Positions 29,414 through 34,627 of a stretch of DNA of 35,611 nt are shown here, one piece after another (the stretch's first letter is position 1; each line of letters opens with the position of its first letter). Source of the DNA: a virus; IMG/VR virus record IMGVR_UViG_3300044638_005334, positions 1-35,611 of that record; one strand, 5' to 3'. The notes under the pieces are model-generated. The model made no database searches. It had not been told where the DNA came from and saw only the letters and a program-made list of their open reading frames with translations. A program made the position numbers and the translations under genes.

Positions 29414-29488
29414 GCCTTCAAAGCATAAATGGTGATGCACGGGTTTTGTAAGCCTGAGAACTCAGTTCGATTCCGAGTGAAGGCACCA
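29414..29488 (+). tRNA. tRNA-Thr (TGT)
   Basis: Acceptor GCCTTCA/TGAAGGC, D-arm GCAT/ATGC, anticodon loop TTTGTAA, T-loop TTCGATT, discriminator A, encoded CCA. One A-C mismatch in the T-stem. Confidence 0.85.
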
Positions 29489-29569
29489 TATTGAAGCATA
29501 CTCTAACTAATAATAAGGGTACGCCTCGGGTTGGCTTGCAACCAGCGCCTTGAGTGTGTTTCAATATGG
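29486..29569 (+). ncRNA. Long-stem hairpin RNA between tRNA-Thr and tRNA-Glu
   Basis: 29486-29503 pairs with 29552-29569 over 18 bp (two G-U pairs). Inside are AAGG/CCTT and GGTTG/CAACC with loop GCTTG. The 5' strand shares the CCA of tRNA-Thr, so base pairing and tRNA maturation exclude each other. No coding content. Could be a processing signal or an independent small RNA. Confidence 0.6.
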
Positions 29570-29576
29570 TTTTTAT

Positions 29577-29651
29577 GTTCCCTTCATCTAGCGGTCAGGA
29601 TGTCACCCTTTCACGGTGAGTACACGAGTTCGAATCTCGTAGGGAACGCCA
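29577..29651 (+). tRNA. tRNA-Glu (TTC)
   Basis: Acceptor GTTCCCT/AGGGAAC, anticodon loop CTTTCAC, T-loop TTCGAAT, discriminator G, encoded CCA. Canonical. Confidence 0.93.
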
Positions 29652-29666
29652 ATTTATTTTATTATG

Positions 29667-29772
29667 GAGTTGGATGTGCGTAATGGAGCAATGGCTAGCC
29701 CATCTTTCTAAACAGTGTGGCCACACTATGAAAGTTGCACTTGTGTTGGTTCGAATCCAATCCAGCTCCCCA
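29667..29772 (+). tRNA. tRNA-like gene with oversized centre, anticodon unclear
   Basis: Acceptor GAGTTGG/CCAGCTC, discriminator C, CCA, and a canonical T-arm (GTTGG, TTCGAAT, CCAAT) are clear. A 3-bp D-arm TGC/GCA around GTAATGGA fits. The centre is about 15-30 nt too long: TGGCT/GGCCA can pair around a 22-nt loop, or AGTGTGG/CCACACT forms its own hairpin. The anticodon cannot be assigned. It may carry an insertion or be a pseudo-tRNA. Confidence 0.5.
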
Positions 29773-29784
29773 ATTTTTTATTAT

Positions 29785-29860
29785 GGGTCTATCGTATAAT
29801 GGCAATTATATCTGGCTCTTACCCAGTTTGATACAGGTTCGAATCCTGTTAGACCCACCA
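29785..29860 (+). tRNA. tRNA-Lys (CTT)
   Basis: Acceptor GGGTCTA/TAGACCC, D-arm GTAT/TTAT-type, anticodon loop CTCTTAC, T-arm ACAGG/CCTGT with TTCGAAT, A, CCA. Confidence 0.82.
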
Positions 29861-29863
29861 TTT

Positions 29864-30601
29864 TTATTTGTTATGTAATCGGGTGTGTAACTCAGAGGCA
29901 GAGTAACGGGCTTTTAACCTGTAAGTCGAGATTTCGAAATTCTCCACACCCACCATTTTGTGATTGTTTCCCGCTAGTGTAGTGGTAGCATACGAGTCTC
30001 CAAAACTCTTGGTCGCAGTTCGATTCTGTGGCGGGATGCCATTTTGTCGTTTCTTACCATTTTGGGGCACAAATTTTGGAACCCATTTGGCAAATTGTTG
30101 AACCAGGTTTTGCTGCGAGTGCGGATAATTTGTAATTTTTACAAATTGATCAAACCCATATTCGCAATATATCTGGTGCCATTGAGTAAGCCTTAATTGA
30201 GTTGACTGTTTTCTGGCTTCATGTTTTTGTGATAATTTTCTTTTCTTGAATTCTTTTGTGGTTATCCATCCTTCAGGAATTGATTCTCTAGCAAACTTTT
30301 TGCGGTTCGAACAATCAGTTGCGTTTTCAATAACACACCAAACTGTTCCAAATTGCGAATTGCCAGAACCTTTCTGCTTCAGTGAATTAGTCTTACTTAT
30401 TGTTTGATATATGATTTCAGTTCGATCGATCATTTTGGCTAGACCTTTCCATGCGACTTCGTCTTGCCAGTGACCGTATTGTTCGAACAACTTTCGATGC
30501 GCTTCGGCGTGTTCTTCGACTGTAAGTTTAATGAGATTAGATGGATCGTCGGTTCCACCCATATGTTTTGGGATGATATGATGCTTGTGATATATAGACA
30601 T
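29864..30601 (-). CDS. HNH homing-type endonuclease running antisense into two tRNAs
   Basis: 245 codons, start at 30601 with SD AAGGAG 7 nt upstream. The N-terminus YHKHHIIPKHMGGTDDPSNL with VEEHAEAH is the phage HNH signature. Then come NSQFGTVWCV, IPEGWITTKEFKKRK and a terminal region ending PQNGKKRQNG at residue about 188. Residue 187 onward is the exact antisense of tRNA-Trp and tRNA-Lys(TTT), so the natural C-terminus was probably near 187 and the stop is lost or lies downstream by chance. A self-propagating mobile endonuclease inserted between tRNA-Trp and tRNA-Asn is likely. The encoded tail may or may not impair activity. Confidence 0.8.
   Translation of the reverse strand: MSIYHKHHIIPKHMGGTDDPSNLIKLTVEEHAEAHRKLFEQYGHWQDEVAWKGLAKMIDRTEIIYQTISKTNSLKQKGSGNSQFGTVWCVIENATDCSNRKKFARESIPEGWITTKEFKKRKLSQKHEARKQSTQLRLTQWHQIYCEYGFDQFVKITNYPHSQQNLVQQFAKWVPKFVPQNGKKRQNGIPPQNRTATKSFGDSYATTTLAGNNHKMVGVENFEISTYRLKARYSASELHTRLHNK
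29881..29955 (+). tRNA. tRNA-Lys (TTT)
   Basis: Acceptor GGGTGTG/CACACCC, D-arm ACTC/GAGT, anticodon arm ACGGG/CCTGT with CTTTTAA, T-loop TTCGAAA, A, CCA. One T-T mismatch in the T-stem. Overlapped antisense by the HNH ORF tail. Confidence 0.88.
29968..30041 (+). tRNA. tRNA-Trp (CCA)
   Basis: Anticodon loop CTCCAAA, T-loop TTCGATT, discriminator G, CCA. Acceptor TTCCCGC/GCGGGAT pairs except at 1-72 (T-T). The HNH insertion begins directly after its CCA. Confidence 0.82.
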
Positions 30602-30658
30602 GCTGGCACTCCTTGTTAGTGTTAGAGTCGGTGGATATTACAGTATCGCGACCGACAC

Positions 30659-30672
30659 CTTTATTTAGTATT
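30659..30672 (-). promoter_or_regulatory. Late-type motif on the minus strand before HNH
   Basis: Reads AATACTAAATAAAG on the minus strand, about 60 bp before the HNH start, matching the TACTAAATAA motif at 3539 and 19132. It suggests late expression of the mobile endonuclease, or a T-rich end of its transcript on the other strand. Confidence 0.4.
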
Positions 30673-30680
30673 TTTTCAAT

Positions 30681-30755
30681 TCCTCGGTGGCTGACTAGTA
30701 AAGCAACGAGCTGTTAACTCGTCATATGTTGGAGCGTAACCAACCCGAGGAGCCA
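30681..30755 (+). tRNA. tRNA-Asn (GTT) with non-canonical elbow
   Basis: Acceptor TCCTCGG/CCGAGGA, G, CCA; perfect anticodon arm ACGAG/CTCGT with loop CTGTTAA; T-stem GTTGG/CCAAC. But the T-loop is AGCGTAA (no T54/T55) and the D-loop GACTAGTAA lacks the GG pair. The fold is otherwise complete. Confidence 0.75.
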
Positions 30756-30917
30756 TCTTGGTGACTTGCAGGTGCACTCTGCGAGTTCATCCTATCAGTG
30801 TTGAGGCTTTTCCGTTTCGGGAGCACTGATTGACTTATGAGGCAGAACGGAATGCATTCTATGTTGCGTGGGGGCATAGATAAGAACGAACCTTAAATGG
30901 TAGCCCACGCCATTTTT
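30756..30917 (+). ncRNA. Structured spacer RNA, no gene
   Basis: Stem-loops: a 9-bp stem GACTTGCAG/CTGCGAGTT around GTGCACT (30772-30796), ATCAGTG/CACTGAT (about 30804-30831), and GCGTGGG/CCCACGC (about 30867-30910), the last followed by CCATTTTT as after tRNAs. Contains TTGCGTGGG, also present in the leader at 29362. No tRNA or ORF can be supported. Confidence 0.4.
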
Positions 30918-30992
30918 GGGCTGTTAGTATACTGGGTATTATGCTGCGTTTGCATCGCAGAGAAGGGAGTTCGATTCTCCCACGGTCCACCA
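30918..30992 (+). tRNA. tRNA-Ala (TGC)
   Basis: Acceptor GGGCTGT/ACGGTCC with two G-U pairs, anticodon arm CTGCG/CGCAG with TTTGCAT, T-arm GGGAG/CTCCC with TTCGATT, A, CCA. The usual alanine G3-U70 pair is present. Confidence 0.86.
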
Positions 30993-30997
30993 TTTTT

Positions 30998-31073
30998 GCT
31001 CGGTTAACTCAGTTGGTAGAGTGTCTGGTTTACATCCAGAATGTCGGCGGTTCGAACCCGTCACCGAGTACCA
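30998..31073 (+). tRNA. tRNA-Val (TAC)
   Basis: Acceptor GCTCGGT/ACCGAGT, D-arm ACTC/GAGT, anticodon arm TCTGG/CCAGA with TTTACAT, T-loop TTCGAAC, A, CCA. Confidence 0.93.
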
Positions 31074-31076
31074 ATT

Positions 31077-31182
31077 TTGTTGCTTGTAAGCCCAGAGGCT
31101 AGATCGAGCGTTATGTAACTATCACAATACACTGTAATCAATTGTAAAGCAGTTGAGTGATAGCATAGAGTGCAAGCAGCAA
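31077..31182 (+). ncRNA. Multi-stem RNA between tRNA-Val and tRNA-Gln
   Basis: Outer stem TTGTTGCTTG/CAAGCAGCAA (10 bp, one G-U), hairpin AGCC/GGCT with loop CAGA, inner stem CTATCAC/GTGATAG (31119-31125 with 31157-31163) extended by ACTG/CAGT, then ATC and six T. Not a cloverleaf and no CCA. A candidate stand-alone small RNA. Confidence 0.55.
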
Positions 31183-31190
31183 ATCTTTTT

Positions 31191-31264
31191 TGAGAGATCG
31201 TCTAATGGTAGGACGACGGACTTTGAATCCGTCTATCGGGGTTCGAGTCCCTGTCTCTCAGCCA
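31191..31264 (+). tRNA. tRNA-Gln (TTG)
   Basis: Acceptor TGAGAGA/TCTCTCA, D-arm GTCT/GGAC, anticodon arm ACGGA/TCCGT with CTTTGAA, T-loop TTCGAGT, G, CCA. Confidence 0.93.
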
Positions 31265-31271
31265 TTTTAAC

Positions 31272-31358
31272 GGACAGGTGGGAGAGTGGTTAAATCCAAT
31301 TGACTGTAAATCAATCACCCAATGGGTTACGCTAGTTCGAATCTAGCCCTGTTCACCA
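31272..31358 (+). tRNA. tRNA-Tyr (GTA)
   Basis: Class II with long variable arm (CACCCAATGGGTTAC). Acceptor GGACAGG/CCTGTTC, anticodon arm ATTGA/TCAAT with CTGTAAA, T-arm GCTAG/CTAGC, A, CCA. Confidence 0.9.
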
Positions 31359-31363
31359 ATTAT

Positions 31364-31438
31364 GTGATGGTTGACTAATGGTAAGTCCCCAGGTTGTGAT
31401 CCTGGTATATGCAAGTTCAAATCTCGCCCATCACCCCA
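31364..31438 (+). tRNA. tRNA-His (GTG), encoded -1 base is T
   Basis: Acceptor GTGATGG/CCATCAC, discriminator C, CCA; anticodon loop TTGTGAT; T-loop TTCAAAT. The base before G1 is T, not the G-1 normally encoded for bacterial tRNA-His. Confidence 0.87.
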
Positions 31439-31444
31439 CAATAT

Positions 31445-31520
31445 AGAAACATAGCATAGCGGCTAATGCGCCACCTTCATACGGTGTTTATCGTGAGTTC
31501 GAGTCTCACTGTTTCTACCA
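31445..31520 (+). tRNA. tRNA-Met or tRNA-Ile2 (CAT)
   Basis: Acceptor AGAAACA/TGTTTCT, D-arm GCAT/ATGC, anticodon loop TTCATAC, T-arm GTGAG/CTCAC, A, CCA. CAT could be elongator Met or, if lysidine-modified, Ile for AUA. Confidence 0.85.
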
Positions 31521-31545
31521 TTTTACCATTTTAATGGAGATGCTT

Positions 31546-31827
31546 ATGCCAATAATTGATTTGCCTCCGTACGGAGATGTTGCGTTATTTTACAATCGCG
31601 ACGCAGAGACTCATGTAGTTCATACATGGGATCCATGCCCCACGAACATACACTCAGATAAATTTATTTACTGGGTTTCTAAAGACAATAAAGTTGTGGA
31701 AAAGGGTTGTTGGATTCCTGGTAAAAAAATAGATGAGTTAGTATTAATTTTAATTGAAACGGATACTAATGAACCTGCGCCTGATCTTTTTCCTGTAAAA
31801 GTTCTCAATCCTCCTATTGAAACTTGA
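31546..31827 (+). CDS. Hypothetical protein within tRNA array (93 aa)
   Basis: The start was set at ATG 31546 because GGAG (31536-31539) sits 6 nt upstream; in-frame ATGs at 31534 and 31540 overlap or precede it. The protein (MPIIDLPPYGDVALFYNRDA) has alternating beta-like hydrophobic strands and one Cys pair of unknown role (DPCPTN, KGCWIP). No family recognised. Confidence 0.62.
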   Translation: MPIIDLPPYGDVALFYNRDAETHVVHTWDPCPTNIHSDKFIYWVSKDNKVVEKGCWIPGKKIDELVLILIETDTNEPAPDLFPVKVLNPPIET

Positions 31828-31841
31828 GTTTACTATTATTT

Positions 31842-31916
31842 GTGACGGTGGCTGAAAGGTCAGGCAGAAGTCTGCAAAACTTCTTCATGCTGGTTCGAGT
31901 CCAGTCCGTCACTCCA
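31842..31916 (+). tRNA. tRNA-Cys (GCA)
   Basis: Acceptor GTGACGG/CCGTCAC, anticodon arm GAAGT/ACTTC with CTGCAAA, T-loop TTCGAGT, discriminator T as usual for Cys, CCA. Confidence 0.92.
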
Positions 31917-31920
31917 TTTC

Positions 31921-31997
31921 GGGACAATGGCACAGTTGGTTAGCGCACAGTCCTGATAAGACTGAGGTCGATGGTTCGAGTCCATCTTGTCCCACCA
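31921..31997 (+). tRNA. tRNA-Ile (GAT)
   Basis: Acceptor GGGACAA/TTGTCCC, anticodon arm CAGTC/GACTG with CTGATAA, T-arm GATGG/CCATC with TTCGAGT, A, CCA. Confidence 0.93.
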
Positions 31998-32001
31998 TTT
32001 T

Positions 32002-32077
32002 GCGCTCGTAGTTCAGGGGATAGAACACAAACCTTCTAAGTTTGGGGTCGCAGGTTCGAATCCTGCCGAGCGTGCCA
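32002..32077 (+). tRNA. tRNA-Arg (TCT)
   Basis: Acceptor GCGCTCG/CGAGCGT, anticodon arm CAAAC/GTTTG with CTTCTAA, T-loop TTCGAAT, G, CCA. Reads AGA/AGG. Confidence 0.92.
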
Positions 32078-32094
32078 TTTTTATTGAACAATAT

Positions 32095-32185
32095 CCTTGT
32101 CAGCACAGGGTGCAGGAGAGATTTATAAACTCTTTAGCGGCAGATTACCGTTCACGGCTGGGATCGTTACCCAGGACAAGGACCA
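32095..32185 (+). tRNA. tRNA-like gene with atypical D- and T-loops (anticodon possibly TAT)
   Basis: Acceptor CCTTGTC/GACAAGG, A, CCA; T-stem CTGGG/CCCAG abuts it as in real tRNAs, but the T-loop is ATCGTTA. D-arm GCAC/GTGC has only a 3-nt loop. Anticodon arm AGAG/CTCT with loop TTTATAA (anticodon TAT) or a 9-nt loop. A 24-nt variable region contains CGG/CCG. An unusual class II-like tRNA or a decayed one. Confidence 0.5.
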
Positions 32186-32189
32186 TTTT

Positions 32190-32266
32190 GGGACTATAGC
32201 ATAATTGGTTAATGCAGCAAACTCATAATTTGTTGATTCTTGGTTCAAGTCCAAGTGGTCCCACCA
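32190..32266 (+). tRNA. tRNA-Met or tRNA-Ile2 (CAT)
   Basis: Acceptor GGGACTA/TGGTCCC, anticodon arm GCAAA/TTTGT with CTCATAA, T-loop TTCAAGT, A, CCA. Second of three CAT tRNAs; the Met/Ile2 identity needs modification data. Confidence 0.85.
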
Positions 32267-32274
32267 AATTTAAC

Positions 32275-32303
32275 TTTACTTTTGCAAATTACTATAGTAT
32301 AAT
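32275..32303 (+). promoter_or_regulatory. Promoter inside the tRNA array
   Basis: TTTACT (32275-32280), 17 bp, TATAAT (32298-32303), 12 nt before tRNA-Pro. It allows separate transcription of tRNA-Pro and the protein genes that follow. Confidence 0.75.
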
Positions 32304-32314
32304 ATATAAACAAT

Positions 32315-32390
32315 CAGGATGTAACTCAATTGGTAGAGTGCGACGTTTGGGGCGTCGATGTTGTAGGTTCAAGTCCTATCATCCTGACCA
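32315..32390 (+). tRNA. tRNA-Pro (TGG)
   Basis: Acceptor CAGGATG/CATCCTG, anticodon arm CGACG/CGTCG with TTTGGGG, T-loop TTCAAGT, A, CCA. Confidence 0.93.
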
Positions 32391-32408
32391 TTTTATTGAG
32401 GATATATT

Positions 32409-32987
32409 ATGGCAAATCATGTAAACACTCATGTTCGTTTTGAGAAACTCAACGATGCTGGCAAAGCAAAGTTGCAAGAACTATACTCGCGCGTTCGAAC
32501 TGGATCTGACAAAGCAGTCATTTATGAGTGGTTCAGTGACATCTTCGGTCTTGATCCAGAAATTACAGATAAGTATGACTGGAATTTAGAAAACATTGGA
32601 CCGAAGTGGTGTTACTTCGAAGATCGTGGCGAAGATTATTTCAATACAGTTTCTGCTTGGAGTTTTCCGCAAGCAGGATTAGAGTGGCTCTTTGAGCAGA
32701 TTGTTTCTGTTGACCCCGACTTCATCGCGTCCGTCATGTATGAAGACGAAATGCCAAACTTCTTTGGTGTTTATGTTTACAACAAAGATGGAATGATTGA
32801 TGGATGTGAGTGGGGTGAAGACGGCGAAATCACAGAGATGATGGAGCAGATGGTTCCGTCGCTCAAGGAACTTGATCAAGAAGAACAGAGTGAAGTTTAT
32901 AATGAACTTTGGTCTGAGAATATTTGGGAACTTGTACATGACAAGCAAGATCAAGTATACAATGACATTATGGAGTCGTTGAAGTAA
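32409..32987 (+). CDS. Acidic phage protein, possibly Api92-like ferredoxin-fold family
   Basis: 192 residues. The N-terminal MANHVNTHVRFEKLNDAGKAK resembles Api92-like phage proteins (ferredoxin-like fold, unknown function). The remainder is very acidic and aromatic (WGEDGEITEMMEQM). Start with GAGG 10 nt upstream. The family is a tentative recollection. Confidence 0.55.
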   Translation: MANHVNTHVRFEKLNDAGKAKLQELYSRVRTGSDKAVIYEWFSDIFGLDPEITDKYDWNLENIGPKWCYFEDRGEDYFNTVSAWSFPQAGLEWLFEQIVSVDPDFIASVMYEDEMPNFFGVYVYNKDGMIDGCEWGEDGEITEMMEQMVPSLKELDQEEQSEVYNELWSENIWELVHDKQDQVYNDIMESLK

Positions 32988-32992
32988 TTTTT

Positions 32993-33077
32993 GCGACTGT
33001 GGTGGAATCGGTATACACAACAGACTTAAAATCTGTCGGCGTCAGCCTTGTCGGTTCGAGTCCGACCAGTCGCACCA
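32993..33077 (+). tRNA. tRNA-Leu (TAA)
   Basis: Class II. Acceptor GCGACTG/CAGTCGC, anticodon arm ACAGA/TCTGT with CTTAAAA, variable arm CGGCGTCAGCCTTG, T-loop TTCGAGT, A, CCA. Confidence 0.93.
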
Positions 33078-33081
33078 GAAT

Positions 33082-33155
33082 GCGGGATTAGTTTAATGGT
33101 AAAACTAGAGTTTTCCAAACTCTTGTCATCGGTTCGATTCCGTTATCCCGCTCCA
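33082..33155 (+). tRNA. tRNA-Gly (TCC)
   Basis: Acceptor GCGGGAT/ATCCCGC, anticodon arm AGAGT/ACTCT with TTTCCAA, T-loop TTCGATT, T, CCA. Confidence 0.92.
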
Positions 33156-33170
33156 ATTTAGAGAAGTGTT

Positions 33171-33353
33171 ATGTTTGACAATTTAAGAACAACACCAGAG
33201 ATTCAACAGGAACGAATGAATATCTGCGCAACCTGCGAACACAACAAACTCAGTGTTTGCAGAAAGTGTGGCTGTATTCTTAAACTTAAAACACAATGGG
33301 CAAATACAAAGTGCCCTGTTGGAAAGTGGGGTCCAGTTAAATCTGAAGTATGA
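33171..33353 (+). CDS. Small zinc-binding protein, DUF6171-like
   Basis: 60 residues. CATC, CRKCGC and a later CPVGKW form a four- to five-Cys zinc site in the pattern of DUF6171 phage proteins. The SD is AGAAG. It overlaps the next gene (ATGA). Function unknown. Confidence 0.68.
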   Translation: MFDNLRTTPEIQQERMNICATCEHNKLSVCRKCGCILKLKTQWANTKCPVGKWGPVKSEV

Positions 33354-33673
33354 GCGATGCTCCGAAAAAATTTAAATTCGAAGATCTTCAACCACATGTA
33401 GATATGCTATGTGATGCGTTGGAAAACAAAGGTGCATCAGCATCTGGCTTCCCATACAACTCACAAGTATATCCACAGGCAAAAGCATACAGAAATCTAT
33501 TAGTAAAAATTAGAGCAAAAGAAATCTCAGGATACGATCTTGAGATGATGCTGCATGCTTTAAAAGCAGAAACTCTAGAATCAACTGGTGGTAATCAAAT
33601 ATATAGAGTTAGAAAGATTGTAGATGCACTTGACTCGTTCGTCAGGAAAGAATATAATAAACTAAACAATTAG
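33350..33673 (+). CDS. Hypothetical protein (107 aa)
   Basis: 107 residues, mostly helical (DMLCDALENKG, YRNLLVKIRAKEISGYDLEM). The TAG stop shares its last G with base 1 of tRNA-Ser, the densest packing in the array. Function unknown. Confidence 0.62.
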   Translation: MSDAPKKFKFEDLQPHVDMLCDALENKGASASGFPYNSQVYPQAKAYRNLLVKIRAKEISGYDLEMMLHALKAETLESTGGNQIYRVRKIVDALDSFVRKEYNKLNN

Positions 33674-33760
33674 GAAGTGTGGGAGAGCGGTTTAATCCGT
33701 CAGTCTTGAAAACTGAAGAGTCGCAAGGCTCCGTGAGTTCGAATCTCACCGCTTCCGCCA
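33673..33760 (+). tRNA. tRNA-Ser (TGA)
   Basis: Class II. Acceptor GGAAGTG/CGCTTCC, anticodon arm TCAGT/ACTGA with CTTGAAA, long variable arm, T-arm GTGAG/CTCAC, G, CCA. Confidence 0.93.
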
Positions 33761-33767
33761 AATTTAT

Positions 33768-33851
33768 GCCCAGATGGTGGAATGGTATACACGGTGGTCT
33801 TAGAAGCCACTGCCGAAAGGCATGGAGGTTCGAGTCCTCTTCTGGGCACCA
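33768..33851 (+). tRNA. tRNA-Leu (TAG)
   Basis: Class II. Acceptor GCCCAGA/TCTGGGC, anticodon arm GTGGT/GCCAC with CTTAGAA, variable arm GCCGAAAGGC, T-loop TTCGAGT, A, CCA. Confidence 0.93.
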
Positions 33852-33871
33852 TATATAATGTAGAGGAGAAT

Positions 33872-34444
33872 ATGTCGTTAGTGTTAGTTGTAGACAAAGG
33901 TGGTATGCCTAAAGACTGGGTAAACTTCGAAACGGCAACATGTTATTATGCTCGTAAGAAGGTTATCTGGCAATTAGGCGAGAAGATGAAAACCATGCTC
34001 GGTGGACACAATGAGCATGGTGAACAGTCACGCGTTGACATCTCTTGCATCATTGGTGTGAGTGGTCCATTGCTTGGTGATAAATTCTACAACACACAAA
34101 CAGTGTTCGCCGATCGCATGACATTGTATGCTCGAGACCAGCATCTATGTGCATATTGTGGAAATGAATTCAGCACGAGTCAATTGACGATTGACCATGT
34201 TCATCCGAAGTCGCGTGGTGGTAGCAACCACTGGACTAATTGCGTAACAGCATGCCGTACATGTAATCACCGTAAGGGATGGAAGACTCCAGAAGAAGCC
34301 AAGATGCATCTTCTCTATGTTCCATATGCGCCGACTGTTCATGAACGGATATTATTAAAGAATCGCAGAGTGCTTGCTGATCAAATGGAATATCTAAAGG
34401 CAAGCATTCCAAAGAACAGTCGTGTTTGGAGAAATGTATCATGA
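33872..34444 (+). CDS. HNH endonuclease (HNH_5-type)
   Basis: 190 residues from ATG 33872 with GAGGAG upstream; the frame open from 33782 runs through tRNA-Leu and is rejected. CAYC and CRTC with TIDHVHPKSRGG and N-W-T-N give a zinc-HNH fold (HNH motif with paired CxxC). Similar HNH proteins occur in bacteria and phages. Unlike the 29864 element it is sense, has a normal stop and is coupled to the next gene (ATGA). Confidence 0.82.
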   Translation: MSLVLVVDKGGMPKDWVNFETATCYYARKKVIWQLGEKMKTMLGGHNEHGEQSRVDISCIIGVSGPLLGDKFYNTQTVFADRMTLYARDQHLCAYCGNEFSTSQLTIDHVHPKSRGGSNHWTNCVTACRTCNHRKGWKTPEEAKMHLLYVPYAPTVHERILLKNRRVLADQMEYLKASIPKNSRVWRNVS

Positions 34445-34563
34445 GTACTGGTGGCAAAGGAAGCAAGCCTAGACCATTGAGTGTTCCACGCAAACAGTTT
34501 GATGATAGCTGGGAGCGCATCTTCGGAAAGAAGAAAGAGAAGAAACAACCTGCTGCGGGATAG
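34441..34563 (+). CDS. Small conserved phage protein (40 aa)
   Basis: ATG 34441 overlaps the HNH stop; TAG 34561-34563. The form GSKPRPLSVPRKQFDDSWER followed by IFGKKKEKK is a short basic protein found in many phages, of unknown function. Its 3' end overlaps the next tRNA by 10 nt. Confidence 0.7.
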   Translation: MSTGGKGSKPRPLSVPRKQFDDSWERIFGKKKEKKQPAAG

Positions 34564-34627
34564 TGAAACAGCATCACAGCGGACTCATAATCCGCAGTTC
34601 CAGGTGCAACTCCTGGTCCCGCTACCA
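34554..34627 (+). tRNA. tRNA-Met (CAT), initiator-like, non-canonical elbow
   Basis: Acceptor TGCGGGA/TCCCGCT with a T-T mismatch at 1-72 (initiator tRNAs are unpaired there), D-arm GTGA/TCAC with loop AACAGCA lacking GG, anticodon arm GCGGA/TCCGC with CTCATAA, T-arm CCAGG/CCTGG with loop TGCAACT (G55), A, CCA. The cloverleaf is otherwise complete. Confidence 0.72.

Follow-up and report, generated by a model that had tools for sequence, protein, structure and literature searches.

The window analyzed here is the whole of IMG/VR virus record IMGVR_UViG_3300044638_005334 (35,611 nucleotides), a 35.6-kb genome fragment of a tailed phage. It carries an array of 22 tRNA genes, two of which, a tRNA-Asn and a tRNA-Met, have an exchanged pair of letters in the elbow, where the D and T loops meet. 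Baseplate wedge, primase, and ribonucleotide reductase genes are also encoded; the nearest ribonucleotide reductases are those of roseophages (60%) and the nearest baseplate protein is that of a gammaproteobacterial phage (42%). The tRNAs were located with Rfam, with ARAGORN, and with an elbow-blind finder that uses only stems, U33, and spacing, gives small bonuses for U8, A14, and CCA, and ignores the elbow letters. This finder returns exactly the 22 tRNAs of the Rfam level in the window, and ARAGORN returns 21. The ordinary elbow, which pairs a D-loop GG with a T-loop TTC, is present in 20 of the 22. A class-II tRNA-like RNA with an altered T loop lies in the same array.

Table 1. Features of the tRNA array, with positions in the window.
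Feature	Position	Strand	Basis or description
tRNA array, 22 Rfam-level tRNAs	29414..34627	+	Rfam and elbow-blind finder
tRNA-Asn(GTT), exchanged elbow	30681..30755	+	Rfam RF00005, 48.2 bits; missed by ARAGORN
A18-G19 of tRNA-Asn (canonical GG)	30697..30698	+	positions 8-9 of the 15-nt D arm GCTGACTAGTAAAGC
T loop AGCGTAA of tRNA-Asn	30733..30739	+	A54 G55 C56 G57 U58 A59 A60
tRNA-Met(CAT), initiator-like, exchanged elbow	34554..34627	+	Rfam, 56.2 bits
A18-G19 of tRNA-Met	34570..34571	+	positions 8-9 of the 15-nt D arm GTGAAACAGCATCAC
T loop TGCAACT of tRNA-Met	34605..34611	+	U54 G55 C56 A57 A58 (U-G-N-R-A)
Class-II tRNA-like RNA	32095..32185	+	fold and homologues; 7-bp acceptor CCTTGTC/GACAAGG, ACCA end
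T loop ATCGTTA of the class-II RNA	32163..32169	+	A54-U58 exchange; U55-C56 kept
Homing/HNH endonuclease gene	29864-30601	-	within the array
Homing/HNH endonuclease gene	33782-34444	+	within the array
tRNA-like RNA with long insert	29664-29773		canonical T arm (TTCGAAT)
Spacer between tRNA-Asn and tRNA-Ala	30756-30917		162 nt
Spacer with tRNA-like closing stem	31079-31184		GTTGCTTG/CAAGCAGC
Spacer with tRNA-like closing stem	29489-29569		TATTGAA/TTCAATA

The original prediction, drawn from the letters of the window alone, was that the tRNA-Asn, the tRNA-Met, and the class-II RNA have altered T loops and D loops without the GG that contacts positions 55 and 56. It located all three RNAs and read their T loops correctly, and the absence of GG was borne out for the two tRNAs. 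The D loop is GACTAGTAA in the tRNA-Asn and AACAGCA in the tRNA-Met. By structural numbering both have A18, G19, G55, and C56: A stands in place of G18 and G in place of U55, and the G19-C56 pair is kept. The contact said to be missing is thus altered at 18-55, from G-U to A-G, with its outer part in place. A18-G19 of the tRNA-Asn sits where the canonical tRNA-Asn of relatives has GG. The tRNA-Asn additionally carries A54/U58 in place of U54/A58, and its loop AGCGU is the 54-58-exchanged form, outside the strict U-G-N-R-A motif. That motif, including the intercalating adenine, is found in the tRNA-Met only (TGCAA, A18).

Both tRNAs score well above the RF00005 gathering score of 29 bits in the covariance model. 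The tRNA-Asn has a 7-bp acceptor stem, a 3-bp D stem, and 5-bp anticodon and T stems, every one of them paired in the elbow-blind finder, and a GCCA end. The tRNA-Met has the U1.U72 mismatch of initiators and the loop CTCATAA with its CAU anticodon; positions 29-31/39-41 of its anticodon stem (GCGGA/TCCGC) hold two G-C pairs and one A-U, and because of this A-U in place of the third G-C pair the tRNA is named only initiator-like. Copies 91.9% identical occur in the related loci L009, L020, and L021. That the altered genes are decaying pseudogenes is scarcely credible. The tRNA-Asn does have the lowest Rfam score in the array, but stems are perfect, CCA ends are present, and the loops are conserved across distant phages. 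The same loops, when sought in related phages, were found on intact or compensated stems, as for AGCGTAA in L048, L050, L064, L096, L149, and others. These compensatory stem changes in homologues rule the pseudogene reading out, as the original prediction had held.

To follow the elbow letters across viruses, tRNAs were collected from metagenomic contigs. A protein-anchored search gave 33 loci that were not selected on any tRNA property, and further loci were added through T-loop patterns for Asn, Cys, Lys, and then any isotype. The first exact Asn pattern, which lacked stem letters, gave mostly chance matches, and these were filtered by stem pairing. This design enriches all frequencies except those of the protein-anchored set. 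Because the collecting patterns contain no D-loop letter, G55 may be made commoner by them, but no link to position 18 can arise from them. The pooled set comprises 1156 unique viral tRNAs, 426 of them with a 15-nt D arm in which positions 18 and 19 are fixed by position; in D arms of other lengths these positions are ambiguous.

Among the 426 tRNAs, positions 18-55 read G-U in 279, A-G in 141, G-C in three, U-G in two, and G-G in one, and A-U never occurs. Position 19-56 is G-C in 414 and A-U in seven, with five in other cells. The joint 18-19/55-56 combinations are GG/TC (268), AG/GC (141), GA/TT (7), and ten others. Forms that read as C19-G56 or U19-A56 occur in rarer tRNAs, some of which have D loops of other lengths. 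Only five combinations occur at 54-58 in all 1156 tRNAs: U-A (1047), A-U (53), A-A (20), G-G (20), and C-A (16). Each common variant alters U54, U55, C56, A58, or G18. Apparent exceptions with GG (GGAG loops) were an artefact of seeking GG anywhere in the loop and read AG at the fixed index. On a FastTree tree built without the D-loop and T-loop columns, position 55 changed at least 42 times. In 13 supported independent pairs, loss of GG went with G55 in 12.3 on average and the opposite was found in none (median p 0.0005).

The association between positions 18 and 55 is far beyond chance, and the pattern is, by comparison of the letters, the signature of tertiary contacts under selection. The original prediction was right that D- and T-loop changes go together, since A18 never accompanies U55. 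Its A-x-C-G-T-x-A pattern, shared by two of the RNAs, is also real and corresponds to the A54-U58 exchange of 53 viral tRNAs. Its claim that the elbow contacts are lost is rejected on the covariation: another pair has been exchanged in, and at 19-56, the outer pair, the original letters stay or give way to another Watson-Crick pair. The covariation establishes a switch of 18-55 from G-U to A-G, and the D and T loops are predicted still to interlock because 19-56 stays Watson-Crick and 54-58 is one of few allowed pairs.

In the tRNAs of the protein-anchored relatives, G55 is present in 16 of 157 unique sequences (seven of nine Cys, five Met, and a single tRNA for each of Phe, Ile, Lys, and Asn), and relatives carry either the old or the new elbow at the same isotype. 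Single backbones occur in both forms. The tRNA-Cys backbone has AAAGGTC/TTCGAGT as D and T loops in the window and AAAAGTT/TGCGAGT or ATAAGAT/AGCATTA in relatives; the initiator backbone has GTCTGGTCG/TTCAAAT in E. coli phage phi92 and GTCTAGTCG/TGCGAAT in metagenomic phages. Two contigs have switched almost throughout. One, L252, has G55 in 14 of 15 tRNAs. The other, L189 (IMGVR_UViG_3300045391_005805), encodes terminase, portal, protease, and major head protein and has G55 in 34 of 37 tRNAs, nearly all with AG in the D loop; the set covers most amino acids and includes class-II tRNA-Leu, and the three canonical tRNAs are two tRNA-Met and one Val(AAC). The 37 tRNAs lie within 8 kb (L189:1-8100), and the canonical tRNA-Met is the reverse of the pattern in the window. 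A phage-encoded RNase was sought beside this array, and only HNH, PhoH, and structural genes were present.

Among tRNA-Met in the pooled, G55-enriched sample, G55 is found in 56 of 62 with a 1-72 mismatch and in 21 of 77 with a paired 1-72; the initiator class is strongly represented among the G55 tRNAs of this sample. Almost all tRNAs are canonical in the cultured phages sampled (Shigella, Vibrio, Pseudomonas, Caulobacter, Streptomyces, Mycobacterium, E. coli, and Klebsiella phages), and related initiator tRNAs are canonical in phi92, Bas62, and Vibrio, Klebsiella, Mycobacterium, and Pseudomonas phages. In phi92 the canonical initiator lies on a closely similar backbone, and the tRNA-Phe has the loop ATCGTTA. 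The Brevundimonas phages Kikimora and Gurke have an initiator-type tRNA with A18/G55, a tRNA-Met located at 154048-154124 in ON529857. A BLAST search of the window's tRNAs against cultured phages returned little for the tRNA-Asn and the class-II RNA.

The exchanged elbow is not a host feature as far as it was tested, that is, for the strict Asn variant in prokaryotes and irrespective of isotype in Bacillota. With one genome for each of 84,980 prokaryote species, no such tRNA-Asn was found; the sole match, in Staphylococcus canis, is not a tRNA. An isotype-blind G55 pattern matched twice in 300 Bacillota genomes, once where the D loop has the normal GG and once at a sequence truncated by the end of its contig, as compared with about 10 per genome for the canonical pattern (158 in 16 genomes). 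Within the scope of these searches, a host-derived variant was rejected.

Nearly neutral drift, in which weak constraint on phage tRNAs lets the isosteric A18-G55 pair be reached by compensatory double mutation, would fit the scattered occurrence and the presence of both forms at the same isotype in close relatives such as the window and L013. We regard it as unlikely, as hardly any intermediate forms occur (one G18-G55 in 426), certain phages have switched often and L189 almost completely, and the exchange is essentially absent from the cellular tRNAs sampled. Far less probable is a specialized role outside translation. Staphylococcus does use tRNA-Gly isoacceptors for its cell wall and not for translation, and these also have G55 and lack GG; in the phages, however, A18-G19 and C56 are conserved and the variant occurs in nearly all isotypes, including the set of 34 in one phage.

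The class-II RNA differs from the two tRNAs in the window. Its 4-bp D stem (GCAC/GTGC) closes a 3-nt mini-loop, AGG, so GG is present, contrary to the original prediction. The canonical GG and U55 are retained, the 54-58 exchange is the sole change, and the mini-loop is consistent with a G19-C56 pair. It has no RF00005 match at E up to 5 and is called by neither ARAGORN nor Rfam, so that covariance scoring, proposed for all three RNAs, supports only the two tRNAs. The RNA has a long variable arm and an anticodon-like loop of nine nucleotides (ATTTATAAA), which leaves its anticodon uncertain. An identical copy is present in L013, and homologues 85% identical over 59 nt occur in L048, L068, L087, L095, and L132. 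These five have AAG as their D mini-loop and AGCGTTA as their T loop, the same exchange of G18/U55 for A18/G55. The loop ATTTATAAA and the variable arm are conserved between the RNA and its homologues (L048:7457-7515 and the other four loci), and the stems covary. The conserved loops suggest a function beyond decoding. A separate 95-nt tRNA (L012:6300-6394) has the anticodon TAT, a long variable arm, and an ordinary 7-nt anticodon loop, and is thus a class-II tRNA with an Ile anticodon.

Other parts of the array also fold. The tRNA-like RNA with a long insert has a possible 8-bp acceptor and a weak match to RF01852 (tRNA-Sec; 22.5 bits, below threshold). Of the two spacers with tRNA-like closing stems, the one closed by GTTGCTTG/CAAGCAGC is 98% conserved, in L013 only. 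The spacer between tRNA-Asn and tRNA-Ala is 65-94% identical across about 20 related loci, with compensated helices ATCAGTG/CACTGAT and GCGTGGG/CCCACGC and a possible, nearly invariant pseudoknot TCCGTT/AACGGA. It has no Rfam match and is probably a structured RNA of the phage arrays that has yet to be described.

The homing/HNH endonucleases of the array are likely what drives the tRNA gene swapping seen when the window is compared with L013. Integration is common at tRNA genes, and the variants might remove the conserved gene sequence GGTTCGANTCC that integrases or homing endonucleases target. The HNH/homing endonuclease genes within the array would suit such selection at the DNA level, but the paired D-loop change would not be needed for it and most neighboring tRNA genes keep the motif, making this explanation highly improbable.

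The normal elbow has G18 intercalated between bases 57 and 58, in contact with pseudouridine 55, and its flat outer pair is 19-56 (PMC4810234). In the phage tRNAs, A18 may slide into the U-G-C-R-A T loop as adenine does in the U-G-N-R-A motif of RNAs that lack tRNA T-loop modifications. The L shape would then be retained and the tRNAs used in translation. TruB needs U55, TrmA U54, and TrmH G18. From this enzyme chemistry, an A18/G55 elbow should be unable to receive pseudouridine 55 from TruB or 2'-O-methyl-G18 from TrmH, and the A54/U58 form should be unable to receive m5U54 from TrmA or m1A58. Since G55, A18, A54, and U58 could not take these modifications, our preferred reading is an elbow whose folding needs none of the host enzymes that act on the T and D loops and which those enzymes do not handle. 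These are probably functional phage tRNAs with a rewired, fully compensated elbow that is independent of the host elbow enzymes. At its most speculative, this proposal would allow phage tRNAs made in a burst to fold and enter translation without waiting for host enzymes, and proteins that recognize U54, U55, or G18 might neither hold nor handle them. Weighing against it, G55 is rare among the cultured phages sampled, and most tRNAs of the same arrays are canonical, so host modification is tolerated for them. Independence from modification would, moreover, leave the same sequence signature as evasion of an elbow nuclease.

Such evasion, raised in the original prediction alongside resistance to modification enzymes, is a tentative alternative. 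A nuclease (from host defence, a competitor toxin, or a phage host-shutoff RNase) might read U54-U55-C56 together with G18-G19, and the phages would change the letters and keep the shape. We know of no elbow-specific antiphage nuclease, and none that grips the elbow was found in the sequence or in the searched literature; Cas12a3 touches the T-arm backbone only, and most array tRNAs are still canonical. On the other hand, the diverse changes at 18-55, 19-56, and 54-58 all remove canonical letters with pairing kept, 34 of 37 tRNAs are switched in L189, and the G55 set has an excess of initiators. For anticodon and variable loops, both antiphage systems that target tRNAs and phage tRNAs that resist them are established (PMC10264068, PMC11555353, PMC13096335), and a contact-dependent-inhibition toxin, a tRNase, cuts the T loop beside the pseudouridine (PMC9086364). 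It is conceivable, if doubtful, that a viral tRNA pool insulated at the elbow, as the 34 A18-G55 tRNAs among 37 in L189 might be, is untouchable by an elbow-reading host or viral RNase or by a modification-dependent step while host tRNAs are lost. If so, the elbow would be a mark of self and non-self in phage infection.

The exchanged elbow points toward some pressure acting on the tRNAs of phages, most of all on initiators. In tRNA, pseudouridine 55 and the G18 that partners it are regarded as universal (PMC4810234). A large natural set that replaces 18-55 with near-perfect covariation in nearly every isotype makes the role of the universal elbow letters and modifications beyond the fold testable, and the tRNAs could serve as orthogonal scaffolds. 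Standard finders also overlook such genes, so phage tRNA counts are too low; the window's tRNA-Asn and the Lys copies of L010 and L015 escape ARAGORN.

There are selections of suppressor tRNAs in which the D/T contacts were altered, and related combinations may be among them. In a search of open-access full texts, no report of the A18/G55 exchange in phage tRNAs was found, and it goes unmentioned in reviews on T-loop conservation and on non-canonical tRNAs (PMC7912444, PMC7609411). The RNAs would still be tRNAs, with a natural elbow pair that we did not find described.

With the canonical bacterial tRNA (RF00005) they share the cloverleaf, acceptor and T stems, CCA, anticodon loop, interlocking loops, and the 19-56 pair; they differ in having A-G and not G-pseudouridine at 18-55 and, often, an exchanged 54-58. 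In the staphylococcal cell-wall tRNA-Gly, the D and T loops likewise depart together from GG and T-pseudouridine-C. This is a single, non-translational isotype, whereas the phage variants keep G19-C56 and occur in most isotypes. Nuclease-evading phage tRNAs are also altered at letters read by the host, but in the anticodon loop, and the D or T loops are not mentioned in that work (PMC10264068). tRNA-Pyl and type II mitochondrial tRNAs (PMC7609411) also lack GG and T-pseudouridine-C; they restructure or lose the D/T contact, whereas the phage tRNAs appear to keep it through the exchanged pair. The A54-A58 pair of the eukaryotic initiator tRNA (PMC7912444) recurs in the 20 viral tRNAs with that combination, and the eukaryotic initiator lacks the A18-G55 exchange. 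There is also a likeness to the T-loop motif of the FMN and TPP riboswitches (UGAAA, UGAGA), whose U-G-N-R-A pentaloop is shared with the commonest phage form, U-G-C-R-A with A18. In the FMN riboswitch, the UGAAA loops receive intercalating A90 and A38, the adenine lying between nucleotides 4 and 5 (PMC3764141). The motif joins loops within riboswitches, whereas the phage version would lie in the elbow of a translating-type tRNA.

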